From an uncultured SAR116 cluster alpha proteobacterium (GTDB taxonomy: Bacteria > Pseudomonadota > Alphaproteobacteria > Puniceispirillales > Marisalimonadaceae): a DNA stretch of 64,000 bases. Made by a program: the position numbers and the translations under genes. Positions 10,616-53,978 of the stretch are shown piece after piece (the first letter of the stretch is position 1; every line of letters starts with the position of its first letter). A model generated the notes under the pieces. The model ran no database searches and was not told the DNA's origin. It was given only the letters and a program-made list of their open reading frames with translations. The stretch spans positions 1-64,000 of the forward strand of contig CACHEH010000002.1 in the NCBI GenBank assembly GCA_902578805.1, read 5' to 3'.

Positions 10616-11530
10616 ATGACACTTAAAATAAGAATTGCCACTCGAAAATCTGAACTCGCTTTACGACAAGTAGATATTGTTAAGAGTTATCTTGGAGAAG
10701 ATGTTGAAACTGAAACTGTTAAAGTTACTACATCAGGGGACAAAATTTTAAATAAATCTTTATCTGACATTGGAGGTAAAGGTCTTTTTATTAAGGAATT
10801 AGAATATTTTATTTTAAATGGATTTGCAGATATTGCTGTTCACTCAATGAAAGACATAGAAACAGATATTACAAAAAATACTGAAATCTCAGCTGTTCTT
10901 CCAAGAGGTGATAGAAGTGATGTCTTGTTAGGAAATTATGATTCATTCGATGATTTGCCAGATAAAGCAATTGTAGGAACAAGTTCTGTAAGAAGAGCTG
11001 CTTTTGCTAAATATTATAGGCCTGATTTAAACATAAAAATTCTGAGAGGTAATGTTGGAACTCGAATTGAAAAGCTAAACTCTGGATTATATGATGCAAT
11101 TATATTAGCCAAAGCAGGTTTGGATAGGTTAAATATTAACGTTGGTAATATAATTCCAAATGAAATTATTCCTCCAGCATCTTCTCAAGGGGTAATTGCG
11201 ATTCAATCTACTACAAATCACAATAATGAATATCAAAAACAATTAAAGATGCTCTTAAATAAAATTAACGATGAAAGGGCTTTTTTTGAAACTTTAGCTG
11301 AAAGAAGTCTATTAAAAACTTTAGACGGTTCTTGTAGATCTCCAATTTCAGCAAGCGCACATTTTACTGATACTAAAGAATTGATATTGTATGGAGCAAT
11401 TGCAACTTTAGATGGTACGAAGGTAATTAGATCTAAAATCAAAGGATCGAATAAAGACGCAATTAAGTTAGGTAAAGAGTTAGGGAATAAAATTAAAGCT
11501 AAAATTAATGGTGACTTTTTATTTAAATAA
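10616..11530 (+). CDS. hemC: Porphobilinogen deaminase (hydroxymethylbilane synthase)
   Basis: Polymerises four porphobilinogens to hydroxymethylbilane in heme synthesis. The 304 aa protein starts KIRIATRKSELALRQ and includes HSMKDIETD, LPRGDRSDVL, VGTSSVRRAA and LRGNVGTRIEKL. The dipyrromethane cofactor Cys is in LDGSCRSPISA (about residue 242). No clear Shine-Dalgarno precedes the ATG. It leads the hemC-hemD-mitofilin-hemY run. Confidence 0.96.
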   Translation: MTLKIRIATRKSELALRQVDIVKSYLGEDVETETVKVTTSGDKILNKSLSDIGGKGLFIKELEYFILNGFADIAVHSMKDIETDITKNTEISAVLPRGDRSDVLLGNYDSFDDLPDKAIVGTSSVRRAAFAKYYRPDLNIKILRGNVGTRIEKLNSGLYDAIILAKAGLDRLNINVGNIIPNEIIPPASSQGVIAIQSTTNHNNEYQKQLKMLLNKINDERAFFETLAERSLLKTLDGSCRSPISASAHFTDTKELILYGAIATLDGTKVIRSKIKGSNKDAIKLGKELGNKIKAKINGDFLFK

Positions 11531-11554
11531 CTTGATTAAACAAGGAGTTTATGG

Positions 11555-12304
11555 ATTAAAAAATCAAAAAAAATAACTTTTGTCCTTCGAGAGAAAAAAG
11601 ATGCTGAAAGGAATTCACAATATCTAAATGATAATGGTTTTTTTTCAAAACCTTTTCCCATAACAACATTAAAATATGCAGATTTTAAAAGTTTAAATAT
11701 TTCTAAAATTGATTTTAATTATATCATTATAACAAGTCCCAAAGCATTAAAAACTCTTGATGAGATAATTTTAAACACACCAGGCAACCTCACTAAAGAT
11801 ATAAGAATTTTTTCTGTAGGATTTGAAACCACATATCAATTGAAAAAATCATCTTATACTAATATTGTTCAAGCAAATAATAATTCTCAATCTTTACATA
11901 ACTTAATTGTTACAAAAACTAAAAAAGAAGATTATGGTTTGTGGATTGCTGCTAAAAATAGAAGTGCTGAATTTGAAAAAAATTTATCAACTAACAACAG
12001 AAAAATAGAAATTATCGAAGGTTATAGTACCTACCCAATTTTAGAATTATCAAAGTCTTTACAAACGGATTTAATTGAATATGAAATCTTAAATTTAGTA
12101 ATATTTTCATCAAGAAATGTATCAATTGCAAAACAAATTTTAGAAAATTACAATTTATTCAACATTGTAAAAAATAAAGCAACTTTATATGTTAATAGTG
12201 AAAATGTTGCTAAAAAAGCAGAGAGTATAGGTTGGAGAAATATAAAAATTATCAAGAAAAATTTTACTAAAGAATTTTTAGATAATATAATCAAATTACC
12301 TTAG
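11555..12304 (+). CDS. hemD: Uroporphyrinogen-III synthase with an apparent ATT start codon
   Basis: Cyclises hydroxymethylbilane to uroporphyrinogen III, the step after HemC. Weak primary-sequence conservation is usual for this family, but the two-lobed pattern fits: ITFVLREKKDAERNSQYL at the start, IIITSPKALKTL in lobe 1, VIFSSRNVSIAKQIL in lobe 2, and position after hemC. The only in-frame ATG-type start (11840) would remove about 95 residues including lobe 1. The frame opens after a stop upstream, and an ATT at 11555 lies 7 nt after AAGGAG (11542-11547), giving 249 aa, normal for HemD. An out-of-frame ATG at 11551 is followed by GAT TAA. Either ATT is the start or one base is wrong here. 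Confidence 0.88.
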   Translation: MKKSKKITFVLREKKDAERNSQYLNDNGFFSKPFPITTLKYADFKSLNISKIDFNYIIITSPKALKTLDEIILNTPGNLTKDIRIFSVGFETTYQLKKSSYTNIVQANNNSQSLHNLIVTKTKKEDYGLWIAAKNRSAEFEKNLSTNNRKIEIIEGYSTYPILELSKSLQTDLIEYEILNLVIFSSRNVSIAKQILENYNLFNIVKNKATLYVNSENVAKKAESIGWRNIKIIKKNFTKEFLDNIIKLP

Positions 12305-12322: not shown

Positions 12323-13174
12323 ATGATAAAAGCCAAAACTCATAAAGCTAAGAGTGATAAAGAAACAATCATCGACATGGAGCCAGTAAATGAAACACAA
12401 AAAACAATTATTTTAAAAAATCCTATTTTTTTAATTCCATTTATAGCCGTCTTTTCATTTATTATAATTTTAATTTGGTTAACATTATATTATTTGCCAA
12501 ATTATATTGAACAACAGTCAAATAAAATCATTGAACTAAATAACGAGATTGAGACTTTAAAAGATAAAGAAAATACAAAAATTAATGAAATTAACACAGA
12601 AATCAAATTACTTAAAAATAAGCTTAATACTTTAGATTTTAATACTAGCGAGACAATAAACCTTGAGATTAAAAATCAAGGTAATTCTTTGTTATTGATA
12701 AAAGAAGAGCTAGATAAAATCTCAAATAAAATTAAAATTTTAGAAAACAAAAATGAAACAGCAAATAAAAAAATTGAACAAAATGATAATGCCGTCCAAG
12801 TAAAAAGCTCTTATAAATCCAGAAAGTTTTTACAAAATATAGAAAAATATCAAAAAGAACTTATAAAAGAAGGTGAAATAATTATAGAAAAACTTCTCTC
12901 AAAAAAAGACTTTGGTTCATCTTCTAATTACAATGAAATTCTAAGTGAACAAACCTATTTGAATAGATTAAAAAATTATTTTGCAGGTTTTTTAAAACTT
13001 AGAAGGTTTTCGGACAACACCACCCCTAGAGGATTAATTACAATGGCAGAAAAAGAACTTGAAAACAAAAATTTTAATAATTTTTTGTCTATCATAAAGA
13101 CACTTCCTGAGAATTGGAAAGAAACTATAAAAGACTCAATAAATAGGTTTGAAAGAGCATTAAATCAAAATTAA
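12323..13174 (+). CDS. Mitofilin-family membrane protein
   Basis: A 283 aa protein with a charged cytoplasmic N-terminus, one hydrophobic segment (about 35-57) and a long Lys/Glu/Asn-rich coiled coil (about 60-165), then a C-terminal helical domain. Alphaproteobacteria carry a mitofilin/Mic60-like gene between hemD and hemY, and this is that position; Mic60 is implicated in shaping intracytoplasmic membranes and cristae. Primary sequence alone is low-complexity, so the call rests mainly on architecture and location. Starts 18 nt after the hemD stop, with AGGGA upstream. Confidence 0.75.
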   Translation: MIKAKTHKAKSDKETIIDMEPVNETQKTIILKNPIFLIPFIAVFSFIIILIWLTLYYLPNYIEQQSNKIIELNNEIETLKDKENTKINEINTEIKLLKNKLNTLDFNTSETINLEIKNQGNSLLLIKEELDKISNKIKILENKNETANKKIEQNDNAVQVKSSYKSRKFLQNIEKYQKELIKEGEIIIEKLLSKKDFGSSSNYNEILSEQTYLNRLKNYFAGFLKLRRFSDNTTPRGLITMAEKELENKNFNNFLSIIKTLPENWKETIKDSINRFERALNQN

Positions 13175-13189
13175 AAAAAGAGTGAATAA

Positions 13190-14584
13190 GTGATTTTTAA
13201 AATCTTAAAACTAATTATATTTATCTCCATCATATGGTATTTATCAGAGTTTTTTTCTGAGCGTCCAGGTGTGACATTTATAAATTGGATGGAGTGGGGA
13301 ATTCAAATTCCTACTGACAGGTTTATTCTAATTATAATTCTATTTTCTGTAATTTTAATCTTTATTGACAGGATTTGGCTAGCTTTTTTGAATTTGCCAA
13401 AAGCGACATTTAGACGATTTGAAGCTAGCAATAATAAAAAAGTCGAACAAAAATTAGTAAAGGCATTTTTATTAGCAAGTCATGGAGAATTAGAAACTGC
13501 AGCAAAAGAAGCTGCTTTAGTATCAAGGAATACTAAGGATAAAAATTTAGGTAAATTATTAAATACACACATTAATGTCTTTAACAAATTAAATAAAAAT
13601 TCTAATGAAAATGAAGAATTATCAAAAAATTATTTTAAACAGCTTACTGATGAACCATCTACAGCATTTGTTGGTCATTTAGCACTCATGAGACAAGCAA
13701 TATTTGATAAAAAAGATTTAGATGAAATTATTAATGAGGGTCTAAAGGCTCTTAAATTTGAACCTAAGTCAAAACAAATCTTAGAAGTCTTGTTATTTTC
13801 GTATGCAAAGCTGAAAGACATTTCTAATTCTCTGGTATATCTCAATAAATTAAAAAAACTGAATTATATAAAAGATAATATATATAAAAATATATCTGCA
13901 GATTTAAATTATTTGAAGGCACTAGATTACTTGGAAGATGAAAAAAGTGGTCTTGCCACCAATCATTTAAAAGAAGCCTTTAAGCAAAAACCAAGTCATA
14001 TTGAAGCTTCTATGAAGTTGTCAGAGTTGCTTAAAGGTATTAATTCAAAAAATAAATCAATTGCCCAATTAGAAAAAACTTTTTTATTAACCGCTAATCC
14101 TAATGTTTTAGAAGAATTATCAAAAAAATGGAATTTAAAAACTTCAGGATCTCGTGTTTCAAAAGCTATTAACCTTTTGACTAAAAAATCTTCTCAAGAA
14201 ATTAAAAATGATATTAAAATAGAATTGGCATGTTACGCTATTTCAGAGGAAATTTGGGGAGAGGCTGAAAAACTATTAAAAGATATTCCTGAGGATAAAC
14301 TTACAACTAAAGCTTATCAAGCACTAGCTGATATAGCTGGATCTCAAAATAATCCTGAAGTAGTTAAGACTTATCTTGAGAAAGCTGCAAGCGCTAAAGA
14401 AGGATATAATTATTTTTGTTATTCCTGTGGTCATAAAAATCATAATTGGGAATTACATTGTTCAAAATGTGATCAATTAAGTACTATTGATTGGATGAAA
14501 ATAGAAAATAATCAAAATTTTGATGTTTTAAAAATTACTTCAGATAATGGTTCTAATAAATTATCAAATAAAATACTCAATTGA
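13190..14584 (+). CDS. hemY: HemY-type TPR membrane protein
   Basis: Membrane-anchored TPR protein of unresolved biochemical role, genetically linked to late heme synthesis. The 464 aa protein has two hydrophobic segments (about 3-19 and 42-63) around a short loop (family HemY_N), then helical repeats from about 80 to 400, and a C-terminal zinc-ribbon-like end with C-x2-C (CYSCGH) and C-x2-C (CSKCDQ). Starts with GTG, preceded by AAGAG. Its stop region overlaps the 3-prime end of the convergent LysE gene by 21 bp. Confidence 0.88.
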   Translation: MIFKILKLIIFISIIWYLSEFFSERPGVTFINWMEWGIQIPTDRFILIIILFSVILIFIDRIWLAFLNLPKATFRRFEASNNKKVEQKLVKAFLLASHGELETAAKEAALVSRNTKDKNLGKLLNTHINVFNKLNKNSNENEELSKNYFKQLTDEPSTAFVGHLALMRQAIFDKKDLDEIINEGLKALKFEPKSKQILEVLLFSYAKLKDISNSLVYLNKLKKLNYIKDNIYKNISADLNYLKALDYLEDEKSGLATNHLKEAFKQKPSHIEASMKLSELLKGINSKNKSIAQLEKTFLLTANPNVLEELSKKWNLKTSGSRVSKAINLLTKKSSQEIKNDIKIELACYAISEEIWGEAEKLLKDIPEDKLTTKAYQALADIAGSQNNPEVVKTYLEKAASAKEGYNYFCYSCGHKNHNWELHCSKCDQLSTIDWMKIENNQNFDVLKITSDNGSNKLSNKILN

Positions 14585-52640: not shown

Positions 52641-52652
52641 ATAGGTATTTGA

Positions 52653-53978
52653 ATAATAAAAAATAAATTTATAAATTTTTTTAAAATAGATCAAAATATT
52701 GAAGCTATTTTTAATCTTGCAGAGAGTATTGGTATTAAAATTTGGATTGTTGGTGGATCTTTAAGAGATTATCTTACTAATGAAAAAGTAACCGACATTG
52801 ATTTTGTAATAAATGAAGATATAAAAAAATTCGTAAAAAAAATAAGTAAAAATAATATAAATGTAAATGAGACCTACATAAAATATAAAACTATATCACT
52901 TATAATAAATAAAAAAGAATATCATATAACTAGCTTAAGAAAGGATCTAATTTCTTATGGAAGATCTGCATTGGTTGATAATGCATTTAGTTTGATTGAG
53001 GATGTTAAACGAAGAGATTTTACAATTAATAGCTTATATTTAGACTCAGAAGGAAAGTTAACAGATCTGCTTAATGGAAAAAATGACCTAATTGAAAGAA
53101 AACTTGTCTTTATAGGCAATCCAATTGAAAGAATTGAAGAAGATTATCTAAGAATTATAAGGTTTTGTCGTTTTTCTGGAAATTTTGATAACAAAATGTC
53201 AAAAAATCTCAAAAAAGAAATTATTTTAAGAGTTCCTAAAATCATTCATTTATCAAACAAGAGAATTAGAGATGAGATCGATAAAATCCTATTAACTAAG
53301 AATTGTTATAAATGTTTTTTAATGATGACAAAATTAACTTTAGACAAATATCTTCTAATTAATAAAAATAATTTTAAAGAATCTGAAATATCTTCTGGAT
53401 TTGTACTAAAAAACTTTGGAATAGTTGATTTTATTAAATTTAATGCAATAACTTTGGTACAAAATGAAAAATTAGATTTAATTTCTGTGATAATGATCCA
53501 TTTATATGGAGAAAATTGTATTGATAAAATAATTAACAGGTTTGATTTAAATAAAAGAAAAATTAAGTTTTTAAATTTTATCAAACAAATAATTAATTTA
53601 AAAATTAACATTGAAAATAATTATTTGGAGTCACACGTAGTTAGAGAAAAACAGATTTATATCTTTCGATTAATTTGGCAACTTAGATGTGGTATAAATT
53701 CAAATAAACAAGGATTATTTAATAAAGATAGAATTCCATTTAATTGGTATAAACTTGCATTATTACATATTCTGCCATTTGAAAAAATAAAGAACGTTGA
53801 TTTTTGGGATTTACAGTGGCCTATATTCCCATTAGTTAGAGAGGAAATAGTAAAATTAAAAAAAATAACGACTTATGGTGAAGTTGAAAAATTATTTTTT
53901 CAAGCTGAAAATTTTTGGGTAAACAACAATTTTAAAACTTCACAAAAAGAAATTTTAAATTTTTTAAGAAATATATAA
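52653..53978 (+). CDS. CCA tRNA nucleotidyltransferase / poly(A) polymerase family, with a non-standard start codon
   Basis: Adds or repairs the tRNA 3-prime CCA end. The class II nucleotidyltransferase core is WIVGGSLRDYLTNEKVTDID (GGxxRD and the DxD, about residues 35-54), then RRDFTINSLYLD and the RNA-binding region with EEDYLRIIRFCRFSG. No ATG, GTG, TTG or CTG lies in frame between the stop at 52650-52652 and the GGSLRD motif; the first ATG (52971) falls beyond the active site. ATA at 52653, 6 nt after AGGT, would give 441 aa, and other ATA/ATT codons follow. Either the start is ATA/ATT or there is a base error. Confidence 0.87.
   Translation: MIKNKFINFFKIDQNIEAIFNLAESIGIKIWIVGGSLRDYLTNEKVTDIDFVINEDIKKFVKKISKNNINVNETYIKYKTISLIINKKEYHITSLRKDLISYGRSALVDNAFSLIEDVKRRDFTINSLYLDSEGKLTDLLNGKNDLIERKLVFIGNPIERIEEDYLRIIRFCRFSGNFDNKMSKNLKKEIILRVPKIIHLSNKRIRDEIDKILLTKNCYKCFLMMTKLTLDKYLLINKNNFKESEISSGFVLKNFGIVDFIKFNAITLVQNEKLDLISVIMIHLYGENCIDKIINRFDLNKRKIKFLNFIKQIINLKINIENNYLESHVVREKQIYIFRLIWQLRCGINSNKQGLFNKDRIPFNWYKLALLHILPFEKIKNVDFWDLQWPIFPLVREEIVKLKKITTYGEVEKLFFQAENFWVNNNFKTSQKEILNFLRNI

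Follow-up and report, generated by a model that had tools for sequence, protein, structure and literature searches.

Where does translation of hemD, the gene for uroporphyrinogen-III synthase, begin in this SAR116 genome? The window, i.e., the whole stretch of 64,000 nucleotides that was analyzed, is part of contig C2 in an assembly of 1.49 Mb (~70% complete), and the hemD frame within it holds no ATG, GTG, or TTG before codon 96, the earliest being a TTG at position 11840. A preliminary description had reported this gap and proposed that the gene starts at an ATT behind an ideal Shine-Dalgarno (SD) sequence, with an overlapping out-of-frame ATG GAT TAA as a dead end between which and the ATT the ribosome must choose. 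Re-reading of the sequence confirmed the missing canonical starts as well as the positions of the SD, the mini-open reading frame (mini-ORF), the ATT, and the 249-aa frame (Table 1). The gene order is ordinary and hemCDXY-like: on the plus strand, hemD is followed by a membrane-anchored coiled-coil protein in the hemX position (12323 to 13174, no Pfam match) and by a HemY_N protein (13190 to 14584).

Table 1. Features of the hemD region and of two further loci with weak start codons (positions refer to the window unless a contig is named)
Feature	Position	Strand	Remarks
hemC, hydroxymethylbilane synthase	10616..11530	+	ATG start; TIGR00212, 300 bits, above cut-off
hemD SD, AAGGAG	11542..11547	+	7 nt before the ATT
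Out-of-frame ATG GAT TAA	11551..11559 (ATG, 11551-11553)	+	Judged incidental
hemD start codon ATT (predicted)	11555..11557	+	24 genomes; in most, an upstream in-frame stop is close by
hemD, uroporphyrinogen-III synthase, 249 aa	11555..12304, stop included	+	PF02602, structure model, and structure match
cca/pcnB-family weak SD-like AGGT	52643..52646	+	Read from the sequence; duplex -3.7 kcal/mol
cca, tRNA nucleotidyltransferase/poly(A) polymerase family	52656..53978, stop included	+	Start ATA at 52656; PF01743
hpaR, HpaR/MarR-type regulator	G000:C3:92832-93335 (L209; relatives, L210-L233); ATT at about 93278	minus	G-rich SD

The protein read from the ATT has the properties of a complete enzyme. 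It matches the HEM4 domain PF02602 with 62.6 bits (curated cut-off, 27.5), and its predicted structure (pLDDT, 88.9) shows the two-lobed HemD fold, including an N-terminal strand (residues 6 to 13) directly behind the proposed start, and resembles the HemD crystal structures 3re1, 4es6, 3mw8, and 1jr2 from end to end. In comparisons with close relatives, codons 2 to 95 gave dN/dS values of 0.18 to 0.47, a range similar to that of the remaining gene, and this stretch is therefore under purifying selection and translated.

The start region was read in 27 other genomes of the genus with a sufficiently long HemD. Group A comprises the window and 18 relatives (19 genomes, 85 to 90% identity), and group B comprises five genomes with ~54% identity to the HemD of the window. 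The ATT is present in all 19 group A genomes, 7 nt behind the SD (AGGAG at the same distance), and in five of five group B genomes with a spacing of 6 nt, i.e., in 24 genomes representing two lineages of the genus, while groups C (L022 and L031) and D (L024 and L025) start hemD with TTG or ATG. Among the five group B genomes, four have a TAG immediately before the ATT, and a TGA is located one codon further out in 16 of the 19 group A genomes (TGA TGG ATT or TGA CGG/GGG ATT, with L009 and L015 counted), which rules out an upstream start of the frame in these genomes; L021 of group B is the exception, as it carries an ATG in frame five codons before the ATT. The invariance of the ATT alone is no evidence, since isoleucine codons are generally conserved in hemD: 9 of 14 invariant isoleucine columns keep a single codon across the 24 sequences. 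The argument for a near-cognate start is based on the combination of a conserved codon, a strong and well-spaced SD, and an N terminus free of ATG, GTG, and TTG in group A. On this comparative evidence, the ATT at 11555 is most probably the start codon of hemD, and the earlier proposal is borne out by 24 genomes with a fixed SD spacing within each group. An in-frame ATG at this site, which would have spoken against it, was found in none of the relatives carrying the ATT.

Such a start is highly unusual in this genome. When 66 genes of the window were compared with their orthologues in four syntenic relatives, 64 shared a canonical start with them (58 ATG, 5 TTG, and 1 GTG), and the only two without were hemD and cca (52653 to 53978, counted from a preceding ATA at 52653 that is a possible alternative start). 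Of 665 coding frames on 730 kb, about half of the assembly, the same two genes had the longest prefixes without a canonical start, with hemD in second place, and a screen of the first 343 kb for an SD with ATT, ATA, ATC, or CTG ahead of a missing start ranked hemD first and infC second. The SD of hemD forms a duplex of -7.8 kcal/mol, which is stronger than in ~94% of the genes (top ~6%). An AAGGAG is found 3 to 10 nt before the start in a mere 16 of 664 genes in the screened parts of the genome, and its spacing across the genome ranges from 5 to 8 nt, most often 6. RNA structure at the hemD start did not exceed that of shuffled sequences in the three stretches analyzed. Two frames of a different kind deserve mention. 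G000:C2:107677, outside the window, is a 193-codon frame without a canonical start for 78 codons, and an upstream ATG that runs into an A-run in another frame makes a frameshift or an indel in the assembly more likely than a rare start. G000:C3:97099, a 169-codon frame that reaches its first canonical start after 52 codons, possibly represents a gene with a frameshift.

The distribution of start codons points to a derived origin of the ATT. Most SAR116 families outside the genus and the sister genera g11 and g13 begin hemD with ATG, and sister genus g12 begins it with TTG (L285 and L286, the same proteins as L099 and L100). By codon count, the ATT lies one codon downstream of the former TTG start, a position that is now TGG in group A and TAG or TAT in group B. 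Presumably, the original start was lost by decay and initiation moved to the next codon; judged from this pattern, the ATT is a derived state within the genus. The HemD tree is compatible with one origin and a reversal in group C or with two origins, and a single origin is accordingly not resolved by it.

According to the strongest alternative, hemD does start at the ATT but without any regulatory meaning, the codon having drifted in a small or AT-rich genome while a strong SD compensates. The tree permits one or two origins with drift-like stages from ATG over TTG to ATT, and HemD is required only in small amounts. On the other hand, the ATT has persisted across about 46% amino acid divergence, even though ATG, TTG, or GTG could be regained by many single-base changes, the SD is unusually strong, and 64 of 66 genes in the window have retained canonical starts. 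We regard drift as a serious contender with somewhat less than an even chance.

Starts further downstream, e.g., the ATA at codon 7 in group A, the TTG at codon 9 in group B, or the TTG at 11840, are very improbable. In many HemD proteins, only a few residues precede the first strand, and the TTG at codon 9 might conceivably yield a marginally shorter HemD in group B, but none of the three positions has an SD nearby. Codon 7 is not conserved, being ATA in most group A genomes, CTA in L009, and TTA in L019, and initiation at 11840 would discard conserved and constrained sequence corresponding to five strands of the modeled fold.

The out-of-frame ATG at 11551 could matter in a different way if translation began there and shifted by +1 into the hemD frame within two codons. 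Such a programmed frameshift is a shade less credible still. The ATG is indeed kept in 16 of the 19 group A genomes, but it reads ACG in L009 and AGG in L015, both with an intact hemD, and GTG in L012; it is missing from all five group B genomes, and its distance of 3 nt from the SD is outside the 5 to 8 nt found for AAGGAG in this genome. The same observations count against a meaningful choice of the ribosome between this ATG and the ATT as well as against the mini-ORF as a conserved regulatory element, a candidate that we rejected. Of the conservation anticipated for related genomes, the ATT thus stood, and the overlap with ATG GAT TAA, which is altered in 3 of the 19 group A genomes and lacking from group B, did not. 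Because of the changed or absent ATG and the short spacing, no role is assigned to the mini-ORF, which may compete with the ATT in the genomes that carry it. Finally, an in-frame ATG hidden by a recent mutation or by a single-base error of sequencing or assembly, the trivial explanation raised at the outset, is refuted by the relatives and keeps a negligible probability: dropping one base would bring the ATG at 11551 into frame and indels do occur in single-cell genomes, but 18 other group A genomes, mostly separate single cells, share the sequence, and in three of the group the ATG itself is mutated while the ATT stays.

With its predicted ATT start, hemD belongs to a set of at least four genes with a weak start in the genus, together with infC, cca, and hpaR, as judged from genome comparison. 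For infC, the start is ATA in 46 of 46 SAR116 genomes (27 of the genus, among them G000:C3:12473 [L057], and 19 outside), always preceded by a GGAG-type SD, and IF3 is a normal two-domain protein; since the genus keeps this ATA, near-cognate initiation is in use there. The start of cca, in the second codon position behind the stop, reads ATA or ATT in 29 of 29 genomes of the genus. In the window, about 105 codons pass before the first canonical start at about codon 106, and in most genomes of the genus none is nearby; at codon 9, an ATG is available in six group B genomes. For most relatives outside the genus, a canonical start is found near the N terminus. By score, the protein is nearer to CCA-adding enzymes than to PcnB. 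The regulator gene hpaR starts with ATT, ATA, or ATC in 24 genomes, and solely L230 has an ATG at the corresponding place. An ABC transporter gene at G000:C1:152557 (L239) has an AGGAG 7 nt before an ATA and its first GTG nine codons later. It may represent another near-cognate start, but the gene occurs in only two close genomes, which do not suffice to support the case; the closest homologue (L240) has an ATC at that place.

Overall, we consider it very likely that hemD is translated from AUU as one of a small set of such genes; the weak codon would lower its yield relative to that of hemC and make its output sensitive to IF3. The comparison of genomes supports the identity of the start, its SD, its conservation, and its derived origin, and control by IF3 is plausible by analogy. 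The AUU would be read as fMet in the organism of the window and in two lineages of its genus, and initiation would rely on the strong AAGGAG SD 6 to 7 nt upstream. As inferred from other bacteria, the weak codon should result in less HemD than HemC from the same operon, and falling IF3 activity should increase HemD output, because IF3 rejects start codons other than AUG, GUG, and UUG; in E. coli, it represses the near-cognate start of infC. Since hemC ends only 24 nt upstream, ribosomes that terminate on hemC may reinitiate and add to hemD translation, and such a translational coupling could render the hemD start less sensitive to IF3. The weak starts of the genus suggest an output that is either deliberately low or tied to IF3. 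More doubtful is the idea that infC, cca, hemD, and hpaR form a near-cognate translational regulon that follows the status of IF3 and the ribosome. If true, it would tie the maturation of tRNA ends, heme synthesis, and a regulator of the aromatic-catabolism type to the fidelity of initiation.

Conserved near-cognate starts are a known but rare kind of signal, as in infC, pcnB, sigR, and ccpN, and to our knowledge very few natural AUU or AUA starts have been established in bacteria. The literature searched, which left most subscription journals outside, contained no paper on a near-cognate hemD start or on this SAR116 set. A conserved AUU in a core heme gene and at least three more weak starts in the same genus provide a natural set for the question of an IF3-sensitive regulon, and the step from ATG over TTG to ATT can be traced within one family. 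The findings are also relevant for genome annotation, as gene callers limited to ATG, GTG, and TTG would truncate or drop hemD (95 codons) and cca (about 105 codons).

Among the known systems, infC of E. coli and other bacteria (AUU, AUA, or AUC) is similar to hemD in its long-conserved combination of an isoleucine-type codon with a strong SD. It differs in that infC regulates itself via IF3, whereas the product of hemD is a biosynthetic enzyme and an effect of IF3 on it, if any, would be one-way; moreover, the weak infC codon is common to all SAR116 genomes read, whereas the ATT of hemD is apparently derived within the genus. In E. coli pcnB, likewise a chromosomal gene, translation is limited by an AUU (Binns and Masters 2002, as cited in PMC13009471), as would be the case for hemD. 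This is a different gene from hemD, and the PcnB/Cca-family member of the window also starts with ATA or ATT but is nearer to CCA-adding enzymes; its weak start looks convergent with that of pcnB, because most of its relatives elsewhere in the order start canonically. The closest parallel to a set of such genes comes from Staphylococcus aureus, where cvfC1 (AUU), ccpN (AUA), and citZ (AUA) have conserved near-cognate starts with an extended SD, few per genome and alongside an infC with AUA, and where AUU and AUA starts reach about 10% of AUG expression; these are Firmicute genes with other functions, and their starts were proven by Ribo-Ret and reporters (PMC13009471), whereas that of hemD is deduced by comparison of genomes. 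Streptomyces sigR shares with hemD a noncanonical start conserved at the genus level and a strong ribosome-binding site, but its codon is GUC or GUU, and repression of the GTC start by IF3 was demonstrated experimentally (PMC5472188).
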